From an uncultured Bacteroidales bacterium (lineage in GTDB: Bacteria > Bacteroidota > Bacteroidia > Bacteroidales > CAIWKO01): a stretch of DNA of 64,000 nt. The first letter of the stretch is position 1, and every line of letters begins with the position of its first letter. The stretch spans positions 1 to 64,000 of the forward strand of contig CAIWKO010000035.1 in assembly GCA_903913285.1 (NCBI GenBank), read 5' to 3'. Of the stretch, positions 3,372 through 62,423 are shown in pieces. The notes beneath the pieces are model-generated. The model saw only the letters and a program-made list of their open reading frames with translations, searched no databases and was not told where the DNA came from. The position numbers and the translations under genes are program-made.

Positions 3372-4189
3372 ATAAAATTAACCTTTCAACAATATAAATT
3401 TTTAGACCATATAACCAAAATTGGTAATTAAATTTTTTACAAAAACTGTGAGAATATTAGTTGGCCGTTTATTTTGTTAGTGGATAAATTTAGATGAAAT
3501 AAGTATAGAAGAATTTATAAAAAATTTAGCGTCAAATGTAGATATTAATCCGTAATAAAACAAGAATAATTTAATAATTAATTTTTTAGCCAATGATATG
3601 TAGGCATAGAGACATTAATAATTTTATGATAAAAAGGATAGCTTATAATTTTAGGTTATTTGAAATGAAGAAATCTTTGTGATTTAATAAAAATTTATGA
3701 AAATATTATGAACATTAATTTAGTAGAAAATTCTTTTATGTCATTAACAGCCGCTCTATTTTTTGAATAAATCATATCGTGTTTTAAAACAAACCTAATT
3801 ATATGTTTTTTAAAAAAATTTCAAATATAAATATATGAATTTATAATTTACAAAAAATAGCATGTGTTCTAACAAATAAAAATGGCATTCTACAAACGTC
3901 ATAATTATTAGCTATAAAAATGTTATTTTACCCCGACGTTGCAATAAATAATCAATTCCAAAAAAACATCTGCTGCAATTTTTTGAAGTTTTTTTGTAAC
4001 TATTTTTTTTACTAATGAATACATGGTATCGAAAAGATGTCAAAAAAACTGGAACTAATCATGACGTATTTCTTAAAATCTTTACGAATTCATCAAATTA
4101 GTTTTGTGTTTTTTCGTGTTTACAAAAAAACACATAAAACCATTCATCCACACGTAGCTACACGTAATATTACGTAAAAACATCAAATT
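3372..4189. other. AT-rich non-coding stretch
   Basis: No credible coding frame is seen in this roughly 0.8-kb stretch upstream of the giant surface protein. It is very AT-rich with many homopolymer runs. It holds a perfect 14-bp palindrome, ACGTAATATTACGT, at 4162-4175, preceded by CACGTAGCTAC. The promoter of the minus-strand surface gene should lie near 3380-3450, but no clean TAnnTTTG element was found. Confidence 0.5.
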
Positions 4190-4300
4190 TTTTGCAAAAT
4201 AATTCAAGGATATGTTGAAATTATGTTGAATAGAGTGGGGGCAGATCCGTATAGAAAAAAATTATTCTCCGAAAAATTTGCAAGAAAAGGTGAATGAACC
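4190..4300. repeat. Leader-like dispersed repeat, copy 1 (without array)
   Basis: About 110 bp are closely similar to 7685-7795. Shared blocks include AAAATAATTCAAGGA, TGAAATTATGTTGAAT, GTGGGGGCAGA, CCGTATAGAAAAAAATTATT and CTCCGAAAAATTTGCAAGAA. At 7.7 kb the same sequence is followed by a 21-bp tandem array; here it ends at about 4300 and abuts the end of a broken gene instead. A shorter part recurs at 7360-7428. It is a dispersed repeat, probably the fixed flank of an element family. Confidence 0.75.
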
Positions 4301-7359: not shown

Positions 7360-7428
7360 CATCGAAAAATTTGCAAGAACATGTGTATGAACCTTTTTTG
7401 AAGGTGAGTGTCCTAAAAACAACCTGAC
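7360..7428. repeat. Leader-like dispersed repeat, copy 2 (short)
   Basis: The stretch CGAAAAATTTGCAAGAA is followed after a few bases by GAACCTTTTTTGAAGG, TGAGTGTCCT and CAACCTGAC. The same order of blocks occurs at 7773-7836 in front of array B. The outer part of the leader (GTGGGGGCAGA and CCGTATAGAAAAAAATTATT) is missing here. Array A starts directly after it. Confidence 0.7.
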
Positions 7429-7680
7429 TACGTCGCCAAACAAATTGACCACGTCGCAAAACGAAATGACCGTATCGCAAAACAACTTGACCATGCCGCG
7501 AAAACAAATTACCGTATCGCAAAACAACTTGACCATGCCGTAAAACGAAATGACTGTGTCGCAAAACAACTTGATTACGTCGCAAAACAACATGATCATA
7601 TCGTAAAACAACATGACTACGTCGCAAAACAACTTGACTACGTTGCAAAACAAAATAACCTTGTCGCAAAATAGTAGGTA
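7429..7680. repeat. 21-bp tandem array A (12 units)
   Basis: Twelve consecutive units of exactly 21 bp. The best conserved core is GTCGCAAAACAACTTGAC, with variants such as GCCGTAAAACGAAATGAC. Positions 3-10 of the unit (CGCAAAAC) vary least. Because 21 is divisible by 3 and the units have few stops, several frames stay open on both strands and give seven-residue protein repeats. These have no plausible start or N-terminus, and array B keeps a different frame relative to the same flank, so I regard the array as non-coding. There are no unique spacers between units, so it is not a CRISPR array. Confidence 0.9.
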
Positions 7681-7689
7681 AAAACAACG

Positions 7690-7836
7690 TTTTTTGTAAA
7701 ATAATTCAAGGAAAGTGTGAAATTATGTTGAATTGGGTGGGGGCAGACCCGTATAGAAAAAAATTATTCTCCGAAAAATTTGCAAGAATAGGTAGGGACC
7801 TTTTTTGAAGTTGAGTGTCCTGAAATGCAACCTGAC
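7690..7836. repeat. Leader-like dispersed repeat, copy 3 (full length, precedes array B)
   Basis: The first about 105 bp match 4190-4300 and the last about 65 bp match 7360-7428, so this copy joins the two halves. It contains AAAATAATTCAAGGA, GTGGGGGCAGA, CCGTATAGAAAAAAATTATT, CCGAAAAATTTGCAAGAA, CCTTTTTTGAAG, TGAGTGTCCTGAAA and CAACCTGACC, then array B begins. Between copies 2 and 3 the last segment differs by one base in length. A conserved reading frame through leader and array is therefore not maintained. Confidence 0.75.
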
Positions 7837-8298
7837 CACGCCGTAAAACAACTTGACTACGTCGCAAAATAACTTGACCGTACCGCAAAGCAAAATGAAC
7901 GTGTCGCAAAACAACTTGACCACGTAACGAAGAAAATTGACTACACCGCGAAGCAAAAGGAGCGCACCGCGAAACAAAAGGAACGTACCGCGAAACAAAA
8001 GGAGCGCACTGCGAAGTAAAGGGAACGGACCGCGAAACAAAGGGAGCGCACCGCGAAACAAAGGGAACGAACCGCGAAGCAAAAGGAACGTACCGCGAAA
8101 CAAAAGGAACGGACTGCGGAACAAAGGGAACGGACCGCGAAACAAAAGGAGCGCACCGCGAAACAAAGGGAACGGACCGCGATGCAAAAGGAACGCGCCG
8201 CGAAGCAAAAGGAACGTACCGCGAAACAAAAGGAGCACACCGAAATGTTAAGGGGGCACACCGCGAAACAAAAGGAACGCACCGCGAAGCCGCCGGCA
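7837..8298. repeat. 21-bp tandem array B (22 units)
   Basis: Twenty-two units of exactly 21 bp. The first five resemble array A (GTCGCAAAACAACTTGAC type); the remaining ones share the core CCGCGAAACAAAAGGAACG, strongly purine-rich on the plus strand. The shift from one type to the other along the array suggests that the second type spread by amplification from one end. Each unit has an A-rich run at the same phase. Frames on both strands stay open for over 100 codons (Lys/Arg-rich on plus, Phe/Arg- or Cys/Val-rich on minus); these are by-products of the period. The array ends about 35 bp before the left end of the IS256 element. Confidence 0.92.
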
Positions 8299-8357: not shown

Positions 8358-9575
8358 TTATTGTTTGCACCTGTCTTCAAAGATAATTAAAAACTGATTA
8401 AGTATAAGTCCCCAATTTTTGATTGGGAGATTCCAAGCATTTTCTATGTTTTTAATAGCTAAATAAATTGACTTGGAAGCAGCATTTTCATTAGGGAACT
8501 GTGTTTTTGTTTTGGTATATTTTCTTATACCACGGTTTAGATTTTCAATCGTATTAGTGGTATAAATAATTCGTCTAAGTTCCAGTGGATACTCAAAGTA
8601 ATTGGATAAATTATCCCAATTTACTTCCCATGATTTGATTGCATATTTGTACTTTCCCTGCCATTTAAGTTTAAATTTTTCAAACTCCTCAAAGGCTATT
8701 TCTTTGTTTATGGCGGTGTATACTTTTTTCAGGTCTTGACAAAATTCTTTTCTGTCTTTCCAAACAACAAACTTGCAGCTATTGCGGATTTGGTGGACAA
8801 TACACAGCTGTGTAACTGTTTCGGGGAATACGGCATTAATAGCCTGGGTAAAGCCTTTAAGGTTATCAGTACAAGCAATAAGTATATCTTCTACACCTCT
8901 GGCTTTTAAATCGGTTAAAACACTCATCCAAAAAGCGGCTGATTCTGTTTTCTCAATCCAAAATCCGAGCACTTCTTTTATGCCATCAGGTTTAAGACCT
9001 ATAACGATGTAAACACATTTGTTTATCACCTTATTATCTGTTCTGATCTTAATAACAATGCCATCCATCCACACTGTATAATAGACTGGTTCCAGTGTTC
9101 GTTGTTGCCATTCTTTGGCAGAGACCATGATACTTTCTGTAATATTGGAAACAGTTGTATCACTAATTTCAAGCCCATAAATCTCAAGCACCTGTGCTCG
9201 TACATCAGAGGTGGTCATTCCACGGCTATACATCCCGACTATGGCATCTTCTATCTTGCTACTGATAGTCTCTCCCTTTGGTATAATAAGCGGTTCGAAC
9301 GCTCCGTTTCTATCTCTTGGAATGTTTAGTAATACTTCTCCTACATTCTCTGTTGTAATGGTTTTTGGAAAAGATCCATTGCGGCTGTTACCTGTATTGT
9401 AGCCCTGTTTGGCATGTTTGGAATAGCCCAGATGTTCGTCAAGTTCACATTGAAGCATTTCTTCTATGCCTTGCTTGAACAACGAATTAAAATATTCCTG
9501 AAACGATTCTTTGCTTTTAAATTGTTTGAAAAAGCCTTTGGGAAATTGTTCTCCCGTGTGTTTTTTGTTTTCCAT
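8358..9575 (-). CDS. IS256-family (Mutator-type) transposase
   Basis: About 405 residues from the ATG at 9575 (MENKKHTGEQFPKG). An in-frame extension to 9653 exists but would run through the leader hairpin, so I prefer the inner start. Domains follow the family order. The N-terminal region carries the typical MLQCELDEHLGY segment and the SRNGSFPKTI motif. The DDE catalytic core has the first Asp in VWMDGIVIKI, the second in ACTDNLKGF and the Glu in TTNTIENLNRGIRK. The C-Q-L-C-I-V-H-Q-I-R-N block between the second Asp and the Glu is also characteristic. The length is normal for the family and the frame is intact, so the element may still be active. Its role is cut-and-paste or copy-out transposition of its own element. 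Confidence 0.95.
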   Translation of the reverse strand: MENKKHTGEQFPKGFFKQFKSKESFQEYFNSLFKQGIEEMLQCELDEHLGYSKHAKQGYNTGNSRNGSFPKTITTENVGEVLLNIPRDRNGAFEPLIIPKGETISSKIEDAIVGMYSRGMTTSDVRAQVLEIYGLEISDTTVSNITESIMVSAKEWQQRTLEPVYYTVWMDGIVIKIRTDNKVINKCVYIVIGLKPDGIKEVLGFWIEKTESAAFWMSVLTDLKARGVEDILIACTDNLKGFTQAINAVFPETVTQLCIVHQIRNSCKFVVWKDRKEFCQDLKKVYTAINKEIAFEEFEKFKLKWQGKYKYAIKSWEVNWDNLSNYFEYPLELRRIIYTTNTIENLNRGIRKYTKTKTQFPNENAASKSIYLAIKNIENAWNLPIKNWGLILNQFLIIFEDRCKQ

Positions 9576-9610
9576 TTTAGTATTTGGTTTAAAGGTAAAT
9601 AAAATTTTCC

Positions 9611-9664
9611 AGAGTTGGCTTGTGCTTCGTTTCGCTACGCTCCACTTCAGCACAAGCCAACTCT
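9611..9664. promoter_or_regulatory. Perfect 16-bp hairpin in the transposase leader
   Basis: AGAGTTGGCTTGTGCT at 9611-9626 pairs exactly with AGCACAAGCCAACTCT at 9649-9664, leaving a 22-base loop. It lies inside the element, between the right inverted repeat and the transposase start. Insertion sequences often carry such leader structures to stop transposase expression by transcription entering from outside; that role is inferred. Confidence 0.65.
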
Positions 9665-23230: not shown

Positions 23231-23599
23231 ATGGAAGAACAAAACACAAACACACAACCTCAGGCACAAACCGTTCCACCAGTACCAGGTGCTATCATGG
23301 CATTGGTATTTGGTATTATCTCATTAGTATTATGCTGGTACTTTTGGTTCCCATTTGTTGGTTTGGTATTAAATATCGTTTGCCTGGTCTTTGGTATTCT
23401 GGCAATGGGTAAAGGTAAAAAAGCAATGGCAGAGTTCAATGCTTCACCGGCTTTATACAAACCAAGTTCTTTAGGCTTAGCTAAAGTTGGCAAAATTTTA
23501 GGCCTTGTAGGCTTAATTCTGAATATTTTATTTTTGATTATTGCCATCATTTTTTCATTCGTTATTGGCGGAGCAATAGTACAACATGGTATGATGTAA
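23231..23599 (+). CDS. Small membrane protein, DUF4190-like
   Basis: 122 residues: a polar Gln/Thr/Pro-rich N-terminus (MEEQNTNTQPQAQTVPPVPG), then two hairpins of hydrophobic helices (about 20-60 and 85-118) separated by a basic loop with GKGKKAMAEF. This matches the DUF4190 layout, in which each helix pair has Gly-rich small-residue packing. Two related small proteins are at 47695 and 48029. The function is unknown. It is a single-gene unit ended by a strong terminator. Confidence 0.7.
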   Translation: MEEQNTNTQPQAQTVPPVPGAIMALVFGIISLVLCWYFWFPFVGLVLNIVCLVFGILAMGKGKKAMAEFNASPALYKPSSLGLAKVGKILGLVGLILNILFLIIAIIFSFVIGGAIVQHGMM

Positions 23600-23705: not shown

Positions 23706-24019
23706 GGATAGAAATCTCCTTCCCTGAATAGTAATTCCCATAAAGCGAATAGAAATTCCCAAAAAGCAGGTAGTATTTCTCCAAAAGCGAATAGTACTCT
23801 AAAAAAAGGAAGTAGAAATTTCAAAAAAGGAAGTAGAAACCTCAAAAAGGCAAATAGAAATTCCCAAAAAGTACATGGAAATCTCCATCCCGTGAGTAGT
23901 AATTCAAAATAGGAAGTAGTAATCCCCAAAAAGCGAGTAGTAATTCCAAAAAAGCACATGGAAATCTCCGTCCGGTAAGTAGTAATTCCAAAGAAGTGAG
24001 TAGTAACCTACATAATAGG
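23706..24019. repeat. 21-bp tandem array C (15 units)
   Basis: Fifteen units, fourteen of 21 bp and one of 20 bp. The common core is AGTAGTAATTCCCAAAAAGC, more degenerate than in the other arrays, with every unit holding an A-rich run of four to seven at the same phase. A higher-order pattern is visible: units starting CATGGAAATCTCC recur at 23874 and 23957 and a related one opens the array. The sequence is unrelated to arrays A, B and D. It lies between the terminator at 23.63 kb and the Pho-like promoter of the porin-pst genes. A minus-strand open frame through it (Phe/Leu-rich) is a by-product of the period. Confidence 0.85.
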
Positions 24020-24079: not shown

Positions 24080-24149
24080 TATTCACGTAATATTACAGCA
24101 GTTATTTTGCATCGTGAAAAATAAATTAAAAACCAAAAACAAAACTGCT

Positions 24150-25526
24150 ATGAAAATGAAATTTATTCCAATGATGTTTTTCTTCTTAGTATACTTAGGT
24201 ATAAATAAGATGTATGCACAGGAACAACCACAAGCCAATGGCGACACTATCAGCCCCAAGATAGAGGAAGTAAAAAAAAGTATTGATTTATTAAAAACGG
24301 AAATAGATATACTAAAGAAAATAAAATTTTCCGGTTACATTCAAGGCCAATTTCAACTTGCCGATCGGGTTGGAACCAAAACCTATGAAGGTGGCGATTT
24401 TTCACCAATCAGCGATAAAAGGTTTATGGTTCGCAGAGGCCGTCTGAAGCTTGCTTACATGGGAGATTTAACCCAGTATGTATTGCAAATTGATGTTACC
24501 GAAAAAGGTTTTGCCTTAAAAGATGCTTATGCAAGCTTTACGGAACCCTGGTTGAAAACATTTGGAATTACAGTTGGGGTATTCAATCGCCCATTTGGTT
24601 TTGAAATACCCTATTCATCAAGTTTGCGCGAATCGCCTGAACGCGCCAGAATGTCGCAGATTTTATTTCCGGGCGAAAGAGATCTGGGTGCCGAACTCGT
24701 AATCCAGGCTCCTAAAACAGTACGTATATGGAGCGGGTTTAAACTCGAAGCAGGTTTGTTTTCTGGCAATGGTATTAACCCCGATTTTAAAGAAATAAAA
24801 GATTTTATCGGTCATCTGACCTATACGGGCAGTACAAAAAACGAATTATTTAAATACTCAGCCGGTGTTTCCTATTATAATGGTAAAGTGTATCAGGGAA
24901 CCAAGTACATTTATTCAATGAATACGTTAAAAGATAACATGACCAAAGGGTTTACCGTTGATTCAGCAGCTATCAATAAAGGCGGATATGCTAAAAGAGA
25001 ATATTTCGGTGCTGATATTCAACTTATCATTGCTACACCCGTTATTGGAATAACCCAGTTGCGCGGCGAATTCATCATGGGACAACAACCTGCTTACGAC
25101 AATTTAGGTTCAACAAGTACAAGCGATGCAACATTTTCGAAAACTCCTCCAACCAGAGATACATACATCCGTAAATTCAACGGAGCTTATTTTTACTTAG
25201 TTCAGAACATCGGAAAATCGAAATTCGGCATCGTGGTAAAATACGATTGGTATGATCCGAATACTGACGTAAAAGGACAAGATGTAATACCTACCTATTC
25301 TTATACAGATGGCACGGGAACAGTAATCCCGAACAACAAAACTTTATTAACGGCTTCGGATATTAAATACCAGACCTTAGGGATAGGTGTGAATTATAAA
25401 ATGACCGAAAATATTAAATGGACCGTTTACGGAGCCTGGGTTGTGAACGAAAAAACCGGTATAACAGGCTACGGCGGCGATCTGTACGACAATGTCTACA
25501 CACTCAGAATGCAATATAAATTTTAA
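24150..25526 (+). CDS. Phosphate-selective porin O/P family outer-membrane protein
   Basis: About 458 residues from ATG 24150 (MKMKFIPMMFFFLVYLGINK, signal peptide ending YAQ). An upstream GTG at 24114 is in frame but would put a Lys-rich stretch before the signal peptide. After a short coiled-coil-like segment (KIEEVKKSIDLLKTEIDILKK) the barrel starts with FSGYIQGQFQLADRVG, the normal opening of the Porin_O_P family, and continues in alternating beta strands to the terminal aromatic LRMQYKF. Such porins admit phosphate through the outer membrane. It is followed 49 bp later by pstS and preceded by a Pho-like promoter, so it is probably the first gene of the phosphate-starvation operon. Confidence 0.9.
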   Translation: MKMKFIPMMFFFLVYLGINKMYAQEQPQANGDTISPKIEEVKKSIDLLKTEIDILKKIKFSGYIQGQFQLADRVGTKTYEGGDFSPISDKRFMVRRGRLKLAYMGDLTQYVLQIDVTEKGFALKDAYASFTEPWLKTFGITVGVFNRPFGFEIPYSSSLRESPERARMSQILFPGERDLGAELVIQAPKTVRIWSGFKLEAGLFSGNGINPDFKEIKDFIGHLTYTGSTKNELFKYSAGVSYYNGKVYQGTKYIYSMNTLKDNMTKGFTVDSAAINKGGYAKREYFGADIQLIIATPVIGITQLRGEFIMGQQPAYDNLGSTSTSDATFSKTPPTRDTYIRKFNGAYFYLVQNIGKSKFGIVVKYDWYDPNTDVKGQDVIPTYSYTDGTGTVIPNNKTLLTASDIKYQTLGIGVNYKMTENIKWTVYGAWVVNEKTGITGYGGDLYDNVYTLRMQYKF

Positions 25527-29345: not shown

Positions 29346-30020
29346 ATGAGTCATTTAGATACAGAAATTCAGGAACTCAAATCCGATGTGCTCGAAATGT
29401 GGAGTTTGGTGATAAACCAGATCACCAAATCGAAAGAAGCCATTGTTAACTTCGATAAAGAAATTGCCAACGAGATACACGTGAACGAAAAACGCGTGGA
29501 TGCTTTCGAGCTGAAACTCAACATGGATTGCGAAAAGATACTGGCCCTGTTCAACCCCGTGGCCATCGACCTGAGGTTTGTGCTGGCAGCCCTGAAAATT
29601 AATTATAATCTGGAACGCATAGGCGATTATGCCAACGGCATTTCGCACGTCGTGCTCGATTCCGAGAAGCCGTTTTGCGAGGAGTTGCTTCAGGAAACCC
29701 GCATCCTCGAAATGTTCGAAACCAGCATCGAGATGCTCAACGAAGCTTTCGCATCGTTCGAAAAAGAAGACAAGCATTTGGTGGCTAACCTGTTTTATAA
29801 AGATAAAAAACTCGACGAGGTGAACCTCGAAGCCAATAAGATCATTGCCCGCCTCATTCAAAAAGATCCGCAATGCATCGATCAGAGTTTGAACCTGCTT
29901 TCGGTTATCCGCAAGTTGGAGCGCGTGGGCGATCAAACCCTCAACATAGCCGAAGAGATCATCTTTTTTATCGAAGCAAAAGTGCTGCGCCACAGCCGGC
30001 CAAAGAAAATCGGGAAATAA
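29346..30020 (+). CDS. phoU: Phosphate signalling protein PhoU
   Basis: 224 residues, two three-helix PhoU modules. The metal-binding helix motifs are clear: DLRFVLAALKINYNLERIGDYA near residue 77 and LSVIRKLERVGDQTLNIAEEI near 186. PhoU links the Pst transporter to the PhoR/PhoB regulators and keeps the response off when phosphate is plentiful; no phoR or phoB is in the window. It lies 39 bp after pstB. A weak 7-bp hairpin (AATAAAC/GTTTATT) follows at 30019-30041 before arsC. Confidence 0.95.
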   Translation: MSHLDTEIQELKSDVLEMWSLVINQITKSKEAIVNFDKEIANEIHVNEKRVDAFELKLNMDCEKILALFNPVAIDLRFVLAALKINYNLERIGDYANGISHVVLDSEKPFCEELLQETRILEMFETSIEMLNEAFASFEKEDKHLVANLFYKDKKLDEVNLEANKIIARLIQKDPQCIDQSLNLLSVIRKLERVGDQTLNIAEEIIFFIEAKVLRHSRPKKIGK

Positions 30021-35153: not shown

Positions 35154-38100
35154 ATGATTTATAGAAAATCAATTTTACTGACATTTTTATTTGCGTTTTG
35201 TTGTTATTTTGCGCAATCGCAAACGATGGTTGTAAACGAAATTATGTTTAAACCGGGGCCATCAACAGTGGGTTGTGACCAAAAAATGGCTTCACAACCT
35301 CAACCCACTTGTGGTAGAGAATACGTTGAACTTTATAATTCCGATTGTACTCACGATTTTGATCTAAGCGGTTTTGTTCTTGCAAGTGCAAACATTAACG
35401 ATCCTACTGTTGGTAATGGTGGTGCAATATGTTTCCCTCCGGGAACCATAGTTCCTGCAGGTTCTTTTCTGATTGTCGGTGGTGCAAACGATCATAATAC
35501 GGTAAACGGCACTTTTGATTATCTTGCAGGCTCTTTCGATTTTAAAATACCCAATTATATCGGAACACAATACCTTTGCTTGAACACTGCAAATACCTAT
35601 TGGTTTTTAAGCAATTATGACGGATGGATGGCTTTGTATGAGCCAAGCGGTATTGTGCATTCGGCAGTTTACTGGTCAGCAGCAGCAGGTGATATTTCAA
35701 CCACTTCTGATTTCACAGTTAATCCGTGTTCCCCAACTGCTTATACAGGTGTTCAACTTAAATCGGCCCTGCAGATCTTTCAAACAACTCCCGCTTTAAT
35801 TCAATATATGGGCGATCCTGCCGGCTGCAACACCGGAAACACATTTAGCCGTTTGCCTGATGGTGGTACTTTTCAAACCAACAGGCCTCCAACTATAGGC
35901 CCTTTACGAACGCAGAGGTGTAATGATGGTTCATGCATTGCGTGTGGAAACCTGATTTTATCTTCAACTCCCGACACGTGTGGTGCTCATAACGGCTCTA
36001 TTTCTGCTTTGATATTGAATCAAACTGCTTCACCACCTCCTTATTCATTTCAGGTAACCGGACCGGTTAATATTGGGCCTGTCAGTACTTCTACTGATCC
36101 TTATACTTTTAGCAACCTTCCTGCCGGGACGTATATTGTGAGTGTTACCGATAATTTCGTTCCACCAAACCATACCGTAGATACGATTATCGTTGGGTCA
36201 ACGGGTTCATTAACTATTACAGGTATCACTTCCACTCCTGCAAGTTGCAATGCAAGCAATGGTTCTGCTACAGTTAATGCTACGGGAGGTTCCGGTATTT
36301 CATACACCTGGAGTAGTATTCCTGTTCAGAGCACACAAACTGCTGCCAATCTTCCTGCAGGTAACTACACTGTGACTGTTTCCTCTTCAGGTTGTTCTGC
36401 AACAAGCAGTGTAACCGTTTCAAGTCTCAACGGACCCACAGTATCAATAGCCGGTACAACTCAGGCTGGTTGTGGCATGTCAAATGGAGGAGCAACAACA
36501 AGTGCTAATGGAGGTAGTTTACCATACACCTACAATTGGAATAGTATCCCCGTACAAACTACTGCCAACCTTCAAAATGTACCGGCAGGAAGTTATAGTG
36601 TTACTATTACGGATTCAGGTAACTGCTCTGCAACAGCCACTGTAGTTATCACAAGTTTGACGGGACCCTCAGCATCCATCAACGCCACTGTCCCTGCTAA
36701 CTGTGGATTATCCAATGGTTCTGCCACCGCTTCAGTGCAGGGAGGTTCTCTTCCCTATACCTATGCATGGAGCACAACCCCTGTTCAAAATTCTCAAACA
36801 GCTTCCGGTCTTCCCGCAGGCAGTTATTCTGTAACTATATCGGATGCAGGTAGCTGCACCGCAACAGCCACAACAGTTATCACGAGTTTGCCGGGTCCCT
36901 CAGCATCAATCAGCACCACTGTCCCTGCTAATTGTGGATTATCCAATGGTTCTGCCACCGTTTCAGGGCAGGGAGGTTCTCTTCCCTATACCTATGCATG
37001 GAGCACAACCCCTGTTCAAAATACTCAAACTGCTTCCGGTCTTCCCGCAGGCAGTTATTCTGTAACTGTATCGGATGCAGGTAACTGCACCGCAACAGCC
37101 ACAACAGTCATCACCAGTTTACCGGGTCCATCAGCATCCCTCAGCAGCACTGTTCCTGCTAATTGTGGATTATCCAATGGTTCTGCCACCGTTTCAGGGC
37201 AGGGAGGTTCTCTTCCCTATACTTATACATGGAACTCAACCCCTGTTCAAAACACTCAAACCGCTGCAAATCTTCCGGCTGGCAGTTATTCTGTAACTGT
37301 TACCGATGCAGGTAACTGCACCGCAACCGCCTCTGCAGTTATCACCAGTTTGCCGGGCCCCTCTGCATCTATCAGCACCACTGTTCCCGCTATCTGTGGT
37401 TTATCCGATGGTTCAATAAGCGTTTCAGTGCACGGAGGTTCTCTTCCTTATACCTATGCATGGAACACAACTCCTGTTCAAAACACTCAAACTGCCGCCA
37501 ATCTTCCCACAGGCAGTTATTCTGTGACTGTTACCGATGCAGGTAACTGCACCTCCATTGCAAGTGGCACTATAGCGGTTAATAATAATTTACAACTTAC
37601 TTTTGCTGTAATTGATGCCCACTGTGGCCAGGCCGACGGACAGGCTTCTGTTGCCGTGGCAGGTGGTTCCGGCAGCTATTCTTATGTATGGAACACAAAT
37701 CCACCGGCAAATACCGCTGCTATTGTAGCTGTTTCCCCTGGAAGCTATTCTGTTACTGTTGATGGTGGGGGATGTTCAAGTTCGGCTTCTTGTGTTATTG
37801 GCAATATATCCGGTCCTGAAGCTGTTATTTATGTTAGTCCGCATATAGTTAGTGATATTTATACCGATGGAACAGTTACATTCAATGATTTGTCGGTTGG
37901 GAACATTGTTAACTTGCAATGGAATCTGGGCGATGGAAATACTTCTACTCAGCAAAATTTTTTATATAATTATGCCAGTCCGGGTTCTTATATTATAACT
38001 TTAACCGTAACAGATCCCTTCGGATGTTCTGACACTGCAACCGACTCTGTGAAAGTATATGATCTTTTTACGGTTTATATTCCTAATGCTTTTTCGCCAG

Positions 38101-42669: not shown

Positions 42670-43875
42670 TCAAGCATCCGGTGCCGGAGGCCCGTCGTCT
42701 ATCGGGTCCATAGGGATGTCGATTTCGTTGTCCGTATCGGGTTCGAGGGTAATGTCTTTATGCCAATCCTGAAAGCCGGGGGCGGTGGCGCTCATGTGTG
42801 TGCAGTTGGCGGGAGTATTATCTTTGCCGTAGGTGCCGTCGTCTTCGGTTTCTTCCGCGTTGGCCACGTATTGAAAAAACACCAGGCCGGTGCCAATGCC
42901 ATCGTTGGTGGCTGTGTTATACATTTTGCCGTAAACGTTGGCGTAGCCCGTGCTTGCAGGCGTTGTATCGCCCGAAGTACTCACTTTCTGCAGCGCGATG
43001 CTGAGTTTAGCAACCTCTCCATCCACCACCTTAATCTTGTTTTTAAACACCGTGATATAGGCTTTGTTTTCGCACCTGAGCGCCCAACTGCCCGAAGCCA
43101 GACTGTAGAGCGTCAGCAAACCTTTTTTGCTGCTTTTCCGCACCACGGTGGTGATATCGTTGGTAGCCGTAACCTTCACTTTTTCCAGCGGAGCCCCGGT
43201 GTCGGCATCCGTAATAAAGGCCACCAGCGATTTGTGGTGCGACCCCACCGGCGTAATTACTTTGATGGCAGCCCGCCATTCCGGGTAGAGCGATGGTTTG
43301 TACGCAAAAATTATTTTACCGATATATTTTTGCGACAGACTGAGTTTTTTCAGCAAGGCAGGAATAGGATCGGTGCCTATAGATTTTTTCTTACTGATAA
43401 GCAATTGAGGCAAACTTTTTGCATCGCCGAATTTGGTGATGGCTTTGGTCATCGTAACGATGTCGGCAGCATCCAGTTCGGTGAAACTGGTCAGGTTGTC
43501 GCTCATCAAGTCTCTCAATTTGCTTGCCCGGTCGAAAGCCTCGTTGGCTTCGGCTTTAATGATAAAATAAATAGATTTGTCGAGCTCAACTTCGAGTTTG
43601 GTGAGCCCCAGTTGATGTGCCTGCACCACGCAGCGCGCGGCAAAGGGGATGACGGTTTCGCCCATCACAATTTTCAGATTTATTTTGTCGGTGCTCAAGC
43701 CCTCCGATTCTAAAGCCTGAATCATACGTGCTTTTTCAATATCCACAAGTATGGCATCGTGATTGGCTTTTTCGGCCGGGTAGGTTGCTATGGTGTTTAA
43801 TTCTGTGGCGTGATCGTCCAGAAGATTTTTGCCTCTTATGCCTGCATTATAGCGGGAATTATATTTTCTTCTCAT
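42670..43875 (-). CDS. Protein with carboxypeptidase-regulatory-like domain
   Basis: 401 residues, no signal peptide (MRRKYNSRYNAGIRGKNLLD). The first half is helical (about 1-190, a four-helix-bundle-like pattern around LRDLMSDNLTSFTELDAADI). A beta-rich domain (about 205-285) follows with LVAFITDADTGAPLEKVKVT and GLLTLYSLASGSWALRCE, typical of the carboxypeptidase-regulatory-like fold. The C-terminus has a second beta domain (YANVYGKMYNTATNDGIGTG) and an acidic, Pro-rich tail. GC content is higher than in its neighbours. It lies 11 bp after the array-D protein in the same direction. The function is not known. Confidence 0.8.
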   Translation of the reverse strand: MRRKYNSRYNAGIRGKNLLDDHATELNTIATYPAEKANHDAILVDIEKARMIQALESEGLSTDKINLKIVMGETVIPFAARCVVQAHQLGLTKLEVELDKSIYFIIKAEANEAFDRASKLRDLMSDNLTSFTELDAADIVTMTKAITKFGDAKSLPQLLISKKKSIGTDPIPALLKKLSLSQKYIGKIIFAYKPSLYPEWRAAIKVITPVGSHHKSLVAFITDADTGAPLEKVKVTATNDITTVVRKSSKKGLLTLYSLASGSWALRCENKAYITVFKNKIKVVDGEVAKLSIALQKVSTSGDTTPASTGYANVYGKMYNTATNDGIGTGLVFFQYVANAEETEDDGTYGKDNTPANCTHMSATAPGFQDWHKDITLEPDTDNEIDIPMDPIDDGPPAPDA

Positions 43876-43886: not shown

Positions 43887-44345
43887 TTAATTTATAATTA
43901 ATTGATTTATACTATATTTAAACTGTGATTTATTTTGAACAGATGCGAAAAAAATCATTTCCTGATGGGCCGCGTCATAAACCTGATGGGCCGCGTCATA
44001 AACCTGATGGGCCGCGTCATAAACCTGATGGGCCGGGTCATAAACCTGATGGGCCGCGTCATAAACCTGATGGGCCGCGTTATAAACATGATGGGCCGCG
44101 TCATAAACCTGGAAGGCCGCGTCATAAACTTGATGGGCCGCGTTATAAACCTGATGGGCCGCGTCATAAACAGGATGGTCCGCATCATAAACAAGATGGG
44201 CCGCGTCATAAACCGTGCAAACCCCGTTTTCGCCATCGCCTGAAGTATTCCGAACATCACTTTCAGGCAGGTTTTTCAAACCATAATAAACCTTATCAGC
44301 AAAAACTGCATACTGCAAAATATCGGAATGTTGTTGAGCGTCCAT
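43887..44345 (-). CDS. Hypothetical protein built on 21-bp array D (heptad repeat protein)
   Basis: 152 residues. The first 44 (MDAQQHSDILQYAVFADKVY, then YGLKNLPESDVRNTSGDGEN) look like genuine protein with normal codon use. After that twelve seven-residue repeats of the type VYDAAHQ follow, encoded by array D, and a 24-residue AT-rich tail. I call it a gene because of its N-terminus. The repeat part may be an array that invaded or grew inside the gene, and the tail looks like read-through. Substitutions among units are not clearly silent. The CarboxypepD-like gene follows after 11 bp. Confidence 0.45.
   Translation of the reverse strand: MDAQQHSDILQYAVFADKVYYGLKNLPESDVRNTSGDGENGVCTVYDAAHLVYDADHPVYDAAHQVYNAAHQVYDAAFQVYDAAHHVYNAAHQVYDAAHQVYDPAHQVYDAAHQVYDAAHQVYDAAHQEMIFFASVQNKSQFKYSINQLIIN
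43961..44212. repeat. 21-bp tandem array D (12 units)
   Basis: Twelve units of exactly 21 bp with the core GATGGGCCGCGTCATAAAC, several of them identical. Variation is confined to a few positions (for example GTTATAAA for GTCATAAA). The length is the same as in arrays A-C. The consensus shares only the CCGCG block and the central AAA with array B. No unique spacers are present. Adjacent 44213-44230 is not repeated. Confidence 0.93.
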
Positions 44346-51500: not shown

Positions 51501-54500
51501 CAGGCTTTCAACTTACCAACGTGGCGGCATTAGACACTTTTGCATGTTATATTGCCAAAGCAGGCGTGAACAGAATAAATACTGCTTATTGTTATAACGG
51601 CTCGACATGGCAAACCTATCTGGCTAAATATGGGGTTAATGCTTCCTTATATATTTTACCGGAGTTTTGTTTAGATAAACCAAATACCTATCCTCCCGAT
51701 GTCGATTTTTATGCCAGTCAAACTGAAATAACTCCCGGAACTTCCATAAACTTCTTCGATCAATCAACCGGGGGCCCGGTTCCAACATCATGGGCATGGT
51801 CGTTCAGTGGTGCTACACCAACGACTGCTACAACGCAGAATCCAGCAACCGAAAATTATGCTGCTGCAGGTCTGTATGATGTTTCACTGACGGCTGCAAA
51901 TTCAAATGGTTCAAATGCCAAGACCAAAGGCGGCTATATTTTGGTTTCTCCTGTGTCCAATATTGTTTATTGGAATTTTCCGAGCACTTCTGCAAATCTA
52001 ACAGCAGACGGAGGTATCACAGCCAATCTGGCAAAAACATTAACTGTAACGACGAGTGTTTCCACGCCGGTTTATGCTACAACAGGTGCTGGTGGGGGTA
52101 CCGATAAATGTGCAAGTTCTTTCGGCTGGAACGATGCGATCACTACAAACGATTATTGGTCGGTTGAATTTACTACAGCAGGTTATACTAACATAAAACT
52201 ATCATCAAAACAAAGCGGAACTACTACTGCAGCTCCAAAATATTTTTCAGTATATTATTCAATTGACGGCGGTAATAACTTCTCCTTCTTAACGGATGTC
52301 CCTGCCATGACAACAGCGAGTAACTGGACTCAGGGTGTTCTGAACAATTTTCCTTTACCTTCCGAATGCGACAATCAGGCAAGTGTAATGATCTTATGGT
52401 TAAAAACAGCAACTACATCTATGGCTGGGGGAACAATTACTTCAGCGGCTCTGACTTTAATTGATGATATTTATGTAAGTGGTCAGGTTTGCCCATACTC
52501 ACCTGCTGCCGCTGGAACAATTACCGGAACTTCAACGATCTGTCAGGGTCAGACGAATGTGGTGTATACGATTCCGGCAATTACCGGTGCTACTGTCTAC
52601 AATTGGACTGTTCCAACAGGTGCCACAATTGTGTCAGGACAATATACCAATACGATCACGGTTAACTATGCTCAGAATCAGGTAGCCGGTAACATTAACG
52701 TTTATGGTGAAAATATTTGCGGTACAGGAACTGTTTCCGCCAGTTTCCCGATCACGGTTAATCCCGTTCCGGTATCTCCCGGAACTATTACAGGAATACA
52801 GGCTGTAACAGGTGGTCAAAATGGTGTATCATATTCTGTTGGTGCTGTAACAGGTGCTACCAGTTATACATGGACCATGCCTGGATTTGCAACTATTGCG
52901 AGTGGTGGAACAACAAATAGTATTACTGCTAATTTTGCCTGCCCGGGTGATAACGGAAATATGACAGTTCATGCCAACAATGCTTGTGGCTCCGGTCCGG
53001 AATCGTATGCAAAAACTATAAACATAACTTGTGCGCCTGTTGCCGATTTTTATGCAAGTACACAGCAGATCTGTGCCGGAAGCACTGTTACATTTACAGA
53101 TATTAGTACAAATTCACCTACAGGATGGAGTTGGACTTTTACCGGTGGAGCTCCTGCAACAAGCACACTCGAACATCCTACAGTAACATACAATACTGCC
53201 GGAACCTATGCAGTTACTTTGATTGCTACCAATGCCACAGGAAATAATACAATTACTAAAACAGCGTATATCTCTGTAACTTCAGGAGCTGCATCAGTGA
53301 GCATTGCTGCTTCGTCCAATCCTGTTTGTTCAGGATCCGGAGAAACATTTACTGCAACTCCAACAAATGGCGGAACTCCTTCCTATCAATGGAAAGTAGG
53401 TGGGGTAAATGTCGGAACCAACAGTCCTTATTACTATAATTCTTCTCTGCCAACAGGCAGTGTGGTTACCTGTGTTATGACATCTACACTTTCGTGTGCG
53501 ACAGGAAGTCCGGCTACTTCAAATACCTTGACCATGACTGTTAATCCGGTGCTGGTTCCGTTAGTATCGATTGCTGTTACAACAGGAAGTAATCCATCTT
53601 GTGCTGGTTCATCAGTAACATTTACTGCAACACCTACCAATGGGGGAACAACTCCTTCATACCAGTGGACGGTTGATGGAGTGAATGCCGGAACCAATTC
53701 AACGACATTTACACCATCATCCCTGACAACAGGTCAGGTGGTTAGATGTATACTTACTTCAAATGCAACTTGTGTGAATCCTGCAACCTCGACAAGTTTG
53801 GGAACAACAATAACGGTTAACCCTGTTCCTGTTGTCACACCTGCAGCTTCACTTTCAACGATATGTGGTGGATCTGCATCCTCATTAAGTGCAAGCAGTA
53901 CAGTAACGGGAACAACCTATGCATGGATGCCTGGTAGTTTGAGCGGTACACCAGTTTCTGTTACACCATCATCTACAACTACATATACCTTAACAGGTAC
54001 TGCTTCGGGATGTACAGGATCTTCAACAGTAACAATAAGCGTTAATCCAAAACCTGTTGTTACTCCTGCAGCCTCTTATACAACAATATGTAACGGAACT
54101 GCATCTTCATTAAGTGCAAGTAGTACGGTAGGCGGAACAACCTATGGATGGACACCGGGTAGTTTGAGTGGAACACCAGTTTCTGTTACTCCATCAACGA
54201 CTACTACTTATACACTAACAGGAACAGCTTCGGGTTGTACAGGAACTGCAACTATTGCGGTAACCGTAAACCCAAATCCTGTTGTTACTCCTGCAGCTAC
54301 ATTGTCAACAATATGTAATGGTACAGCATCTTCATTAAGTGCGAGCAGTACTGTTGCCGGAACAAACTATACCTGGATGCCGGGTAGTTTGAGTGGTACA
54401 CCTGTTTCTGTAACTCCGGCGTCGACCACAACCTATACATTAACTGGTACAGCCTCCGGATGTACCGGAACTTCAACTATAGCAATAACCGTTAATCCAA

Positions 54501-56740
54501 AACCAGTTGTTACGCCTTCAGCTACATTATCAACAATATGTAATGGCACTTCATCTTCATTAAGTGCAAGCAGTACAGTAGGCGGAACAAATTATACATG
54601 GATGCCGGGTAGTTTGAGTGGAACACCAGTTTCGGTTACTCCATCATCTACAACAACATATACTTTATCAGGAACAGCTTCGGGTTGTACCGGAACTTCA
54701 ACTATAGCAATAACCGTTAATCCAAAACCTGTTGTTACACCTTCAGCTACATTATCAACAATATGTAACGGGTCTTCATCTTCACTAAGTGCAAGCAGTA
54801 CAGTAGGCGGAACAACCTATGGATGGATGCCGGGTAGTTTGGGCGGGACACCAGTTTCTGTTACTCCATCATCCACTACTACATATACCTTAACAGGTAC
54901 TGCTTCCGGATGTACAGGAACGGCAACTATTGCTGTCACCGTAAATCCAATTCCAACAGTAAATAACCCCGGAAACATTACTGTTTGCAATAATGGAACG
55001 GTTTCTTCAACAAGTTTTGTTAGCACACCAGTTGGTGGAACATTTGCCTGGTCGAACTCCAATACAGCAATAGGATTGGCTGCAAGCGGTTCAGGAAATA
55101 TTTCGGGATTTACAGCAACAAACACCGGAGTGGTTCCTATTACGGCGACTATAACGGTTACTCCAACTTTGAGTAATTGTTCCGGGACGCCCATAACTTA
55201 TACCATAACGGTAAATCCGACGGATAACTCTTCATTTAACTATTCGCCTTCAACGTTGTGCCAAACAGGAAGTGATATATTAGCAACAATTCCAGGTGGT
55301 GCAACAGGAACGTTTACTTCCAGTCCGTCAGGCTTAATATTTTTGAACACTTCTACCGGACAAATAGATGTAAGTGCCAGCGCAATTAACGCCTATACTA
55401 TTACATTTACAACAAATGGCACATGTCCGGGTAGCAGTATAAGCAGCATAACAATTACAACTTCGCCTTTAGCCACATTTAATTATACCGGGCCCTATTG
55501 TTCTGCAGGAATTGATCCAATGCCTACATATAATACAGGTTCAAGTGCCGGAACATTTAGTGCCAGTCCAACAGGTTTGGCTTTTATTAGTACGACTACA
55601 GGGCAGGTAGATGTATCTGTAAGTACTCCCGGTTCTTATACTGTTACAAATAGTATAGCTGCTTCAGGTGGTTGTTCAGCAGTCTCTGCAACAAGTTCAA
55701 TAACAATTAATGCAACACCGGACGTAACAGTTCCAACCAATATTGCAGTATGTGGGGGAAGTTCTATATCTGGAACTGCATTTACCAGCTCAGTTACAGG
55801 AACTAACTACTCATGGTCCAACTCAAACACTTCAATTGGTTTAGCTGCAAGTGGTACAGGAAATATTCCGGGATTTACAGCTGTGAATACAGCAACAAGC
55901 CCGATCACAGCAACGATTACAGTAACACCAAGCACTACAAGTTGTACAGGAACACCATCAACGTATACTATAACTGTAACTCCGCTCGTTACCCCAACAG
56001 TTTCAATTGTGCTGACATCGGGTACCAATCCTATGTGTTCTGGTTCTTCAGCAACTTTCACTGCAACGCCCGGCAATGAAGGAACCACACCTGCTTACCA
56101 ATGGCAGGTTAACACTGTGAATGCAGGTTCAGACTCTCCGATATTTACTACTTCAACTTTAAGTACCGGACAGATTGTTACATGTATATTAACTTCAAAC
56201 GCACTTTGTGTAAGTTCTACAACAGCAACCAGCACAGGAATAGGTATGACTGTCGATCCGCCAATTACGGTATCTGCCAACGCTACACCTACTTTGATCT
56301 GTGCAGGCTCATCGTCAACGATAGCTGCGAGCGGTGCTTTATCCTATGCCTGGGAACCGGGTACATTGAGCGGCATTTCTCAAGTTGTTTCTCCGTCAAG
56401 TACTTCTGTTTATACTGTTACCGGTACTTCATTAACGTGTACGGATACTGCCACGGTTACAGTTTCAGTTGACCCTTGTACAGGAATAGCTTCAGAAAAT
56501 GATCTGAACAACTTTACCATCGGACCAATTCCGGTAGATAACGAATTGATAATCGATTGTAAAAAACCTGTTGATATCGAGGTTTCTGTTTATTCAATTG
56601 AAGGGAAGCTGTTATCTCAAAGTGTCTTCTCAGGAGGTCAGACCTACAGTGTGCCTATGTTAGACCTGGCTACAGGTGTCTATATGATTCGCATCATTTC
56701 TGAGAATAACTCAAAGATCTTTAAGATCATTAAACAATAA
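48569..56740 (+). CDS. Giant secreted serine protease with PKD and Ig-like repeats, T9SS type A
   Basis: 2723 residues with signal peptide (MKRSALILLVAFIGTFFVQN). After a propeptide-like region (about 60-200), a trypsin-like S1 protease domain (about 220-505) resembles lysyl endopeptidases. The triad is visible: His in FLTADHCHS (near 285), Asp in NGGSDFCLVLL (near 340), Ser in EGGSSGSPLF (near 430). Then PKD domains (AWSFEGGSPSTSTIKNPTNI and others), jelly-roll segments, and many Ig-like modules with C-x-G starts follow. Five near-identical 75-residue modules are at about 1755-2129. The C-terminal type A sorting domain starts NNFTIGPIPVDNELIID and ends KIFKIIKQ. Likely an extracellular or surface-bound protease. 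Cleavage specificity is not assignable. Confidence 0.92.
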   Translation: MKRSALILLVAFIGTFFVQNAKAQISEGGTPPSFVNTSNISSDFDIKTVDPIDVVQALQEDNNRPGPEWAGRSIPVSYDMNNSGTWTDLPDGRKIWRLQITSTGAQALGLCYNNFYLPEGGQLFIYNASENQIRGAYTFKNNPADKLFATELIQGESLTLEYVSPSTVLKKTDPNKVINATQNGNKISSGNNQLSNLPIISISEVVYVYKTIPFLKQYNMTKQTGWGASLACEVNINCSEGTNWQIQKRGVAEIWLKMGTSWGWCTGDLVNTTNNSGIPYFLTADHCHSEGGTTASAADMLQWGFYFNYEGTACADPATEPTYNTITGCTLKASSPINGGSDFCLVLLNSAPTISFKPYYNGWNHNNTAPTSGVGIHHPAGDIKKISTYTATLGTGTWNDGTNVGTTNAHWSGNWVATTNGYGQVEGGSSGSPLFNQNNLQVGTLTGGSAASCTTGSSFEYGKFYFHWDQDGTASTVRLRPWLDPLGTNPATINGYDPFAGYPDFYGTPTTLYEGQSANFFDLTTNATTWAWSFEGGSPSTSTIKNPTNIVYNQQGTYRVTLTTNTAVAGTQSIEKVGYITVLPGVLPTSIWCDDFTTPANWTLSTSGGYTDNWAITTAAPTGTYSSTMGRISSTSGGNYALFDSDALGAASDNQWANISSATGQNCSTYESVFLRFQENYMKFYDSTLVYVSTDNFVTSKRYVLHSDFANNGATTNPYVQNIDISSVAAGKTNVKVRFTFRSTQNMSTNAGWGYAWEIDDVCLLGVAYGNTLPTADFTATTSRDISPGESVSFADLSTHATSWLWTFEGGTPATSTVQNPTNIVYTSQGYYKVTLAASNQNGTITAVKTDYIHVYSDCSYDGANIQDDDQLSYSLAPTGNWGYVPGHNYNGGVTSYAYADRYTIGNLTGKVKSLDVGVALASVVGAATNVTFTIWSDNAGTPGTVLMTKAVAVSSLQPGYINTIEFSPVSVSNSFFAGFQLTNVAALDTFACYIAKAGVNRINTAYCYNGSTWQTYLAKYGVNASLYILPEFCLDKPNTYPPDVDFYASQTEITPGTSINFFDQSTGGPVPTSWAWSFSGATPTTATTQNPATENYAAAGLYDVSLTAANSNGSNAKTKGGYILVSPVSNIVYWNFPSTSANLTADGGITANLAKTLTVTTSVSTPVYATTGAGGGTDKCASSFGWNDAITTNDYWSVEFTTAGYTNIKLSSKQSGTTTAAPKYFSVYYSIDGGNNFSFLTDVPAMTTASNWTQGVLNNFPLPSECDNQASVMILWLKTATTSMAGGTITSAALTLIDDIYVSGQVCPYSPAAAGTITGTSTICQGQTNVVYTIPAITGATVYNWTVPTGATIVSGQYTNTITVNYAQNQVAGNINVYGENICGTGTVSASFPITVNPVPVSPGTITGIQAVTGGQNGVSYSVGAVTGATSYTWTMPGFATIASGGTTNSITANFACPGDNGNMTVHANNACGSGPESYAKTINITCAPVADFYASTQQICAGSTVTFTDISTNSPTGWSWTFTGGAPATSTLEHPTVTYNTAGTYAVTLIATNATGNNTITKTAYISVTSGAASVSIAASSNPVCSGSGETFTATPTNGGTPSYQWKVGGVNVGTNSPYYYNSSLPTGSVVTCVMTSTLSCATGSPATSNTLTMTVNPVLVPLVSIAVTTGSNPSCAGSSVTFTATPTNGGTTPSYQWTVDGVNAGTNSTTFTPSSLTTGQVVRCILTSNATCVNPATSTSLGTTITVNPVPVVTPAASLSTICGGSASSLSASSTVTGTTYAWMPGSLSGTPVSVTPSSTTTYTLTGTASGCTGSSTVTISVNPKPVVTPAASYTTICNGTASSLSASSTVGGTTYGWTPGSLSGTPVSVTPSTTTTYTLTGTASGCTGTATIAVTVNPNPVVTPAATLSTICNGTASSLSASSTVAGTNYTWMPGSLSGTPVSVTPASTTTYTLTGTASGCTGTSTIAITVNPKPVVTPSATLSTICNGTSSSLSASSTVGGTNYTWMPGSLSGTPVSVTPSSTTTYTLSGTASGCTGTSTIAITVNPKPVVTPSATLSTICNGSSSSLSASSTVGGTTYGWMPGSLGGTPVSVTPSSTTTYTLTGTASGCTGTATIAVTVNPIPTVNNPGNITVCNNGTVSSTSFVSTPVGGTFAWSNSNTAIGLAASGSGNISGFTATNTGVVPITATITVTPTLSNCSGTPITYTITVNPTDNSSFNYSPSTLCQTGSDILATIPGGATGTFTSSPSGLIFLNTSTGQIDVSASAINAYTITFTTNGTCPGSSISSITITTSPLATFNYTGPYCSAGIDPMPTYNTGSSAGTFSASPTGLAFISTTTGQVDVSVSTPGSYTVTNSIAASGGCSAVSATSSITINATPDVTVPTNIAVCGGSSISGTAFTSSVTGTNYSWSNSNTSIGLAASGTGNIPGFTAVNTATSPITATITVTPSTTSCTGTPSTYTITVTPLVTPTVSIVLTSGTNPMCSGSSATFTATPGNEGTTPAYQWQVNTVNAGSDSPIFTTSTLSTGQIVTCILTSNALCVSSTTATSTGIGMTVDPPITVSANATPTLICAGSSSTIAASGALSYAWEPGTLSGISQVVSPSSTSVYTVTGTSLTCTDTATVTVSVDPCTGIASENDLNNFTIGPIPVDNELIIDCKKPVDIEVSVYSIEGKLLSQSVFSGGQTYSVPMLDLATGVYMIRIISENNSKIFKIIKQ
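53831..54955 (+). repeat. Five 225-bp coding tandem repeats (Ig-like modules)
   Basis: Units start at 53831, 54056, 54281, 54506 and 54731, each 225 bp. Each encodes 75 residues beginning VVTPAA/VVTPSA, with STICNGTASSLSASSTVGGT in the middle and TTTYTLTGTASGCTGT near the end. DNA identity between units is high, pointing to recent duplication. Confidence 0.9.
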
Positions 56741-60136: not shown

Positions 60137-60394
60137 CTTATGGATTTCTGTAAGCACTATGTCGTACCCCTGCAATATGCTTATAGGTTTCTATAAGTAC
60201 TATGTCGTACCCCTGCAATATACTTATGGGTTTCTATAAGTACTATGTCGTACCCCTGCAATATGCTTATAGGTTTCTATAAGTACTATGTCGTACCCCT
60301 GCAATATGCTTATGGGTTTCTATAAGTATTATGTCGTACCCCTGCAATATGCTTATGGGTTTCTATAAGTACTATGTCGTACCCCTGCAATATG
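60137..60394. repeat. 43-bp tandem array E (six units) with internal hairpin
   Basis: Six units of exactly 43 bp. Each starts with an inverted repeat (CTTATAG-GTTT-CTATAAG) followed by TACTATGTCGTACCCCTGCA and a short AT tail. In units with CTTATGG the partner stays CTATAAG, so a G-U pair keeps the stem; the first unit has CTTATGG/CTGTAAG, again pairing by wobble. Degenerate half-units flank the array on the left (from 60090). It lies between hisS and the gdpd gene, 3' of the latter. No unique spacers, so not CRISPR. Confidence 0.92.
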
Positions 60395-61299: not shown

Positions 61300-61766
61300 A
61301 TTCCTGTTCTTTTAAGTATCGTTTCCAGATACTCATGGGCTTCATCACTTCCTTCTTCCGGGGCCCACGATGCAAAAACTTTATCGGTAGCCTGAACATA
61401 AGGCCCTTCTTTAAATTCAAAAGCAACCGAACCTGATTCCAGCGAAATGATGGTATGATAACGATCTGGAGGAAATTCCACGGCGAGATCCTCTGAATTT
61501 TTATTCAGAATGATTTGGTCGCATATGCTACCATCGTCATTGAATTCAACCAGCAAAAGTGTTCCCTGCAACACCACAAAAACTTCGTTCTTATCGGGGT
61601 TTATGTGTTTATGAGGCCTGATATACGTGCCCGGTTCCAAAGCATTCAGCATACGTTGCAGAACTGCATCATCGGCAGGATGAAAATTATAGTTCATCCG
61701 TTTGCGCGACGATTGCTTTGCTTTATCAATAAGGCTGTCGAGAAGTTTTTTATTGGTCCGTATCAT
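61290..61766 (-). CDS. WbuC-family cupin protein
   Basis: 158 residues. A cupin fold with metal-binding residues in PGTYIRPHKHINPDKNEVFVVLQG (two His and the Glu of cupin motif 1) and FPPDRYHTIISLESGSVAFEF (cupin motif 2 His). The C-terminal KEGPYVQATDKVFASWAPEE is characteristic of WbuC, found in O-antigen clusters and elsewhere. The reaction is unknown. Middle gene of log-wbuC-gdpd: its start is next to the LOG stop (1 bp apart) and its end overlaps the gdpd start. Confidence 0.85.
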   Translation of the reverse strand: MIRTNKKLLDSLIDKAKQSSRKRMNYNFHPADDAVLQRMLNALEPGTYIRPHKHINPDKNEVFVVLQGTLLLVEFNDDGSICDQIILNKNSEDLAVEFPPDRYHTIISLESGSVAFEFKEGPYVQATDKVFASWAPEEGSDEAHEYLETILKRTGICS

Positions 61767-62357: not shown

Positions 62358-62377
62358 GTCATCAATTTTCTGTAGTA

Positions 62378-62385
62378 CAAAAGTA
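62378..62385 (-). promoter_or_regulatory. Promoter -7 element of the log-wbuC-gdpd operon
   Basis: Minus strand TACTTTTG, matching TAnnTTTG, 20 bp before the ATG at 62357. Confidence 0.6.
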
Positions 62386-62409
62386 GCAAAATAGGGCGAT
62401 AAAATGATG

Positions 62410-62417: not shown

Positions 62418-62423
62418 CACCCG

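Follow-up and report, generated by a model that had tools for sequence, protein, structure and literature searches.

Tandem arrays of constant step and free sequence, and their place before two gene families, in a lake Bacteroidales bacterium and its relatives

Tandem repeats of bacterial genomes have been surveyed by Subirana and Messeguer, reportedly in J Bacteriol in 2020. The class that they describe has constant size and variable sequence, with lengths of 20–23 and 52 nt; in the accessible part of the paper they remark on two turns of the helix and suggest nucleoid proteins or small RNAs as partners (PMC8161180). Porphyromonas gingivalis carries the BrickBuilt MITE with 23-nt arrays and the 464/PgRS elements with 41-nt arrays (PMC4596501, in part), and TAACTGA direct repeats have been described in Beggiatoaceae (PMC4679880, in part). 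In the accessible parts of the literature on such repeats, constant-step bacterial satellites have no established function, and we recognised no link of constant-step arrays to a gene family.

Arrays of the window and their described counterparts

The window analysed here, a 64,000-nucleotide stretch of an uncultured Bacteroidales genome, holds four arrays with a 21-bp step (A to D) and a fifth with a longer one. The features to which the text refers are as follows.

7385..7418, + strand: short leader preceding array A, 88% identical to the leader at 7792-7825
7416..7674, no strand: array A, 21-bp step, 12.3 units, between convergent genes, with no gene start facing it
7792..7825, + strand: short leader preceding array B, counterpart of the leader at 7385-7418
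7828..8290, no strand: array B, 21-bp step, 22.0 units, in the same convergent spacer as array A
23706..24009, no strand: array C, 21-bp step, 14.5 units, the least regular of A to D, 3′ of gene 23231-23599 and 104 bp upstream of gene 24114-25526
42670..43875, – strand: gene of family F2 (see below) beside array D, 401 aa, with a Pfam CarboxypepD_reg region
43961..44214, no strand: array D, 21-bp step, 12.1 units, separated by 86 bp from the F2 gene 42670-43875, upstream of which it lies
60137..60394, no strand: fifth array, 43-bp step, 6 units, found by Tandem Repeats Finder

A sequence-only reading of this DNA had reported four arrays with an exact 21-bp step and 12, 22, 15 and 12 units, in good agreement with the 12.3, 22.0, 14.5 and 12.1 units obtained in register. 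The top autocorrelation lags are 21, 42 and 63 in all four arrays, and Tandem Repeats Finder concurs with the in-register reading. Read in this way the units stand head to tail with no spacers in between; conserved repeats with unique spacers are absent, which rules out a CRISPR array. Array B begins on its left with A-type units, which pass gradually into B-type ones, so that A and B are related, while a comparison of units bears out the earlier statement that C and D have no clear consensus in common with A and B. Among 39 genomes, the A/B region matched only its own. Elsewhere in the window, positions 4166-4291 are an 88% copy of the sequence between A and B with no adjacent array, and a Mutator-family transposase gene at 8358-9653 adjoins array B; the same-genus genome G001 has one copy of it at 79% identity and several incomplete ones. 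Two very large proteins have long repeats in their coding sequence, 231 and 225 bp in length (36585-37553 and 53828-54950).

Like the repeats of Subirana and Messeguer, as the accessible part of their paper presents them (PMC8161180), the arrays are non-coding, constant in size and of unrelated, species-specific sequence, with several families per genome; all the properties by which that class is defined are found here. What goes beyond that class, within the same part of the paper, is a link to two gene families, of which it holds no counterpart, together with the replacement of units at matching sites, a family-specific step and an array-free genome of the same genus. The P. gingivalis elements resemble ours in that they are intergenic arrays of a Bacteroidota species, with steps of 22–23 and 41 nt and with leader and tail segments; however, BrickBuilt has a single 23-nt unit in 19 copies within a mobile element with terminal inverted repeats, whereas here units vary from place to place and there is no demonstrated mobile element (PMC4596501, in part). 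The Beggiatoaceae repeats also form many intergenic sets per genome, but there it is a 7-nt sequence that is fixed, and in our arrays it is the step, with the sequence free (PMC4679880, in part).

Step and unit sequence across genomes

The genome of the lake bacterium (G000) comprises 3,996,376 bases in 70 contigs, of which we sampled 802,315 bp (20%), including the 64-kb window, the locus L005, picked for its arrays, and three short contigs reading N. Intergenic arrays, placed with a home-made gene caller, were those with a Tandem Repeats Finder score of at least 80, at least 2.5 copies and a step of at least 10. The sample holds 39 of them, a count that takes in the three arrays of L005 and omits array D, which was called within a weakly scored open frame. 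The step is 21 in 28 arrays, 22 in two, 41 in three, 42 in two and 43 in one, with 13, 15 and 18 occurring once each, so that 36 of the 39 lie at 21–22 or 41–43 bp; an order-3 Markov sequence of the same size gave no arrays. The earlier claim that the step is conserved and not the sequence thus holds genome-wide, both in this spectrum and in the 52 mutually unrelated units described below, and the many other unit lengths at similar frequency that would speak against it did not occur, 28 of 39 arrays being at 21.

In three further genomes of the genus, the stretches compared are nonrandom, several having been chosen for synteny or for a match (L052 for its match to the 43-bp array). G001 (258 kb) has 13 arrays at 21 and one each at 43, 63, 10 and 11, and G003 (187 kb) has ten at 21, three at 42 and one at 14. 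No intergenic array passes the thresholds in G002 (247 kb), where a more sensitive scan found one degenerate 21-bp stretch and four with 14; degenerate 14-bp intergenic periodicities lie there at L057:5986-6363, L108:15394-15582 and L111:9094-9282. Sampled stretches of eleven genomes belonging to other families of the order yielded five arrays, coding and non-coding together, with steps of 21, 22, 23, 23 and 60. In other Bacteroidota, for which 78 loci surrounding one gene were covered (1.35 Mb), nine of 14 intergenic arrays have steps of 21, 22, 42 or 63. Arrays of 20 bp are also present, at targeted loci added after the genome sampling. In the lake bacterium and two close relatives, a step of about 21 letters is kept while the array sequence changes freely.

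Several composite or dispersed repeats were seen alongside. At L005:2393-3622, where a methylase-like gene of type I restriction-modification stands on one side and a recombinase-like gene on the other, two B-like 21-bp arrays flank a 42-bp array whose two 21-bp halves have diverged. The 43-bp arrays of three genomes (window 60137-60394; L052:15030-15337; L205:1-312; L206:1-286; L211:432-744; L212:173-428), their consensus units compared by eye, seemingly have one conserved half in common and a hairpin-like half that varies by place. Short dispersed intergenic repeats (L098:954-994, L098:1993-2061, L083:7273-7429) recur at many places in G001 and G003, some of them near arrays.

Comparison of the loci in related genomes, a check that the sequence-only reading had proposed, finds units replaced, or arrays absent, at matching sites. 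Downstream (3′) of gene 29346-30020, G001 and G003 have common flanking DNA followed by arrays of unrelated units, that of G003 reaching its contig end, and the window has no array. Genes 61290-61766 and 61767-62420 abut in the window and are separated by a clear array in G001 and by a degenerate one in G003. The 43-bp array at 60137-60394 is missing at the matching site in both relatives, and the sites of arrays L098:12159 and L096:1958 are likewise empty in both; at the site of L096:14991 both relatives have 43-bp arrays, and on the far side of that spacer are 20-bp arrays which, by eye, are nearly identical in G001 and G003. Some units are common to these two genomes. Near 23682, 24049 and 30007 arrays fall at breaks of synteny, as the idea of arrays as rearrangement breakpoints would have it, in few cases that are confounded by spacer length.

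Unit length appears largely conserved. Among 54 sampled arrays, 34 are gap-free, and in 11 of the remaining 20 the gaps sum to zero; taken raw, however, the 97 gap events and 1,490 substitutions give a ratio (0.065) inside the range that non-coding DNA lacking arrays shows when the genomes are compared (0.045, 0.178 and 0.186). A stiffer gap penalty, applied to 54 arrays of F1 and F2 genes (see below), gave 38 gap positions for 1,831 substitutions; cancelling plus and minus pairs within 15 bp leaves 16 gaps, and 24 of 24 test deletions were detected. These counts are suggestive of arrays poorer in uncompensated gaps than ordinary non-coding DNA, after such cancelling only, the two aligners differing and Tandem Repeats Finder possibly favouring regular arrays. 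By a simpler count, which an indel within a unit can escape, 493 of 493 adjacent units are one period apart.

The units themselves were compared as 52 consensus 21-bp sequences from three genomes, in all rotations and on both strands. They resemble shuffled units and are mutually unrelated except for a few pairs, most being found at one sampled place only. An A-rich run in every unit, forming a ladder on one face of the DNA, had been proposed from arrays A to D; the run is present in those four but is not general, since A or T runs of at least 4 occur in 14 of 52 units, the chance level (27% in shuffles), and A/T bases show no excess period at 10.5 or 21 bp (z –2.2 and 0.1; 52 units), which leaves the ladder without support. 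Curvature, the companion proposal, fared similarly in part: under a wedge model with wedge values from general knowledge, the predicted bend of a unit (16.2 degrees) is not higher than that of shuffled units (17.0 and 17.9), but a purely geometric version survives, in that the model predicts a coherent bend of 16 degrees per unit for any unit at exactly 21 bp and less than 2 degrees at 19, 20, 22, 23 and 24. Steps of 20, 22, 41 and 43 do not match exactly 10.5 bp per turn and count against this version. A weak periodicity of purines is seen at 21 and at 3 (z about 3; 3.2 for period 3). Genes of HU/IHF type number two in each of four genomes, the array-free G002 being equal to the three array-rich ones. 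A hairpin or dyad as the hidden common feature was considered and rejected: the enrichment is weak (mean best stem score 4.07 versus 3.48; 9 of 68 units at p<0.05), and although stem positions are less variable in 29 of 39 arrays (p 0.0015), compensatory changes in stems are at chance (16 versus 14), leaving the inverted-repeat enrichment as a minor, unexplained feature.

Two gene families and the arrays before them

Two loci with different arrays, L013 and L082, are paralogous genes with both flanks in common. With the L082 protein as query, 35 matches were found (14 in G000, 12 in G001, 9 in G003, none in G002) and are here called family F1; with the gene beside array D as query, 43 matches (22, 12, 9 and none) constitute family F2. 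The array-free G002 therefore has neither family. F1 proteins have about 205 aa and a C-terminal part that is fibronectin type III-like (titin, 5e-24), with no Pfam match in the one member scanned and no NCBIfam match in three members; F2 proteins have 300–400 aa. No homology between F1 and F2 is detectable, and a single superfamily of F1, F2 and F3 is not supported. Relatives were absent from plasmids, phages and viral contigs for the F1 protein L230, from viral contigs for an F2 protein, from plasmids and viral contigs for L168 and from plasmids for L177; in PHROGs, the Fn3 part of L230 weakly matches phage tail proteins. Single-sequence structure predictions reached a mean pLDDT of 42.6 and 34.2. 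Beyond the arrays of two F1 paralogs, long CT dinucleotide runs lie upstream of the genes (L013:690-830 and L082:12437-12600).

An array was taken as upstream if it lies within 700 bp with no gene between, at a score of 60 (the background was held to the stricter 80). By this measure F1 has an upstream array in 27 of 35 cases and none in five, with three at contig ends, and two of the array-less members, L224 and L246, are the second genes of pairs whose first gene bears the array. For F2 the corresponding numbers are 33 of 43, three and seven. Thus, for the 78 matches, of which 68 can be evaluated, an array lies directly upstream in 60 of 68 (57 of 65 without the three discovery loci L217, L232 and L247); of these 60 arrays, 49 lie no more than 200 bp from the start and 53 comprise five or more copies. 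Other genes that have their own upstream spacer carry an upstream array in 51 of 865 cases, compared with 11 of 17 F1/F2 genes in the same stretches, discovery cases included (Fisher 7.6e-10). Even against spacers of at least 300 bp, a harsh control because arrays lengthen spacers, the difference is 60/68 versus 46/135 (5e-14). Four remote F1 members have the array just downstream instead. Constant-size, variable-sequence satellites of 20–21 bp are already known; the arrays before most members of F1 and F2 are new.

A promoter common to F1 and F2 was another candidate that was rejected, the Bacteroidota-type consensus (from general knowledge) occurring at chance (9 of 44, shuffled 8) and no known promoter consensus exceeding chance in the interval from array to start. 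Some 20 nt ahead of the F1 and F2 starts lies a weak A-rich leader, which probably reflects translation initiation.

Genome-wide, arrays follow intergenic space and have no preference for gene starts: 29 lie in tandem spacers (60% of spacer bases), 16 in divergent ones (28%) and 10 in convergent ones (11%), and of the 29 in tandem spacers 18 are closer to the upstream stop. Out of 61 array-bearing spacers, an F1 or F2 gene faces the array in 11 and has it downstream in 4, about a quarter; arrays A and B, in their convergent spacer, and C, facing a 470-aa gene, have no F1/F2 gene. Other array-facing genes belong to further small families, some of whose relatives also have arrays, and in other Bacteroidota the arrays at L166, L168 and L177 face small proteins, similar by eye only, and those at L138, L155 and L181 do not. 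Co-occurrence of arrays with F1 and F2 refers to four genomes.

For the nine F1 pairs whose proteins are 70% or more identical, the units have an identity of 0.66 in the same orientation, 0.49 in the opposite one and 0.50 when shuffled; below 50% protein identity, unit identity is near the shuffled level. Proteins that are 79–80% identical have units that are unrelated (L217/L223, L239/L243) or nearly the same (L222/L230), and proteins that are 98% identical have units that are 67% alike (L263/L264) or identical (L260/L261). The step is 21 in all 33 F2 arrays; in F1 it is 21 in 18, 20 in six (five of them in one clade) and 22, 41 and 42 in one each (F1 versus F2, Fisher 3e-4). Unit sequence is replaced faster than protein, and the step follows the gene family.

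Geometry, descent and other origins

An upstream position, a free sequence and a kept step together suggest an element that is read by geometry. Constant-step, free-sequence satellites would act in cis through geometry and not through a base-specific site: any unit repeated at about two helical turns would place all its copies on the same face of the DNA and could give the DNA before the promoter a phased and coherent curvature, a platform on which a sequence-tolerant architectural or polymerising protein, or curvature itself, might set the expression of that gene copy. Units could then be gained or lost without rotating the upstream DNA, and arrays away from F1 and F2 may be solitary, relocated or tied to further families. 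We hold this reading tentatively, as a possibility well short of an even chance. In its favour are the step of 20–22 or 41–43 at unrelated sequences, the 60 of 68 upstream arrays, the absence of both families from G002, the few uncompensated gaps, the orientation to the gene shared by the still-similar units of relatives and the coherent bend that the wedge model predicts at 21 bp. Against it stand a placement that follows intergenic space, with about a quarter of array spacers adjoining F1 or F2, the six F1 arrays at 20 and others at 41–43, for which no coherent bend is expected at 10.5 bp per turn, an ordinary raw gap ratio and a promoter consensus at chance between array and start. The geometric cis-element is narrowly favoured over descent with concerted evolution, in which arrays were duplicated with their genes, variant units spread and unit length changed slowly, the step having no function of its own. 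Although somewhat unlikely in our judgement, plain descent with fast unit turnover accounts nearly as well for the family-specific step, with F2 at 21 throughout and one F1 clade at 20; it also fits units that are alike, in the same orientation, between close relatives only, the grading of array B from one unit type to another, and the paralogs L013 and L082. It sits less well with the same step beside unrelated genes and at sites empty in both relatives (L098:12159, L096:1958), or with the lack of detectable homology between F1 and F2.

The placement along intergenic space and the empty sites in relatives, as well as the lack of arrays in the whole of the same-genus G002 at the threshold used, would also fit a mutational ruler, a replication or repair process that duplicates about two helical turns anywhere in intergenic DNA. 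Such a process is improbable, as two-copy duplications show no peak at 21 (a length found for 4 of the 39 intergenic ones in G000, G001 and G003), 20- and 21-bp arrays coexist within genomes according to gene family, and the link to F1 and F2 is left unexplained. More improbable still is a MITE-like mobile element bearing the array, comparable to BrickBuilt of P. gingivalis. The leader common to A and B and the dispersed flanks that some arrays share point that way, as do short imperfect inverted repeats on both sides of C (12 nt, 92%) and of D (15 nt, 87%), matches that are uncalibrated against chance and have no equivalent at A and B; yet most units occur at one sampled place only and not as the same unit in many dispersed copies, and the flanks common to L013 and L082 take in the paralogous gene as well. 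Seven-residue coding repeats or their remains, which the sequence-only reading had offered as its alternative, are very unlikely. It is true that 21 is three times seven, that at least one frame is open in 46 of 47 arrays (2.77 open frames versus 2.22 when columns are shuffled), that purines have the weak period of 3 and that D lies within a weakly scored open frame. However, the variation has neither 3-periodicity (0.047 versus 0.050) nor synonymous bias (0.443 versus 0.449), consensus open frames match dinucleotide shuffles (4.29 versus 4.20), and steps of 20, 22, 41 and 43 occur, none a multiple of 3. Variation of this kind, with no coding signature, agrees with the non-coding nature of the class of Subirana and Messeguer.

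Returning to the geometric cis-element, a bolder and unlikely extension would make array and protein one module, a quickly diversifying multigene family whose copies each have a private, fast-changing DNA tag, read through the two-turn step, to choose, tune or recombine paralogs. The fixed place of the arrays before two countable families, together with a same-genus genome that lacks both, makes the question testable, since one can name the genes concerned, the distance and a control genome. Should geometry prove to be how the step is read, the arrays would be a regulatory element whose sequence is almost irrelevant.
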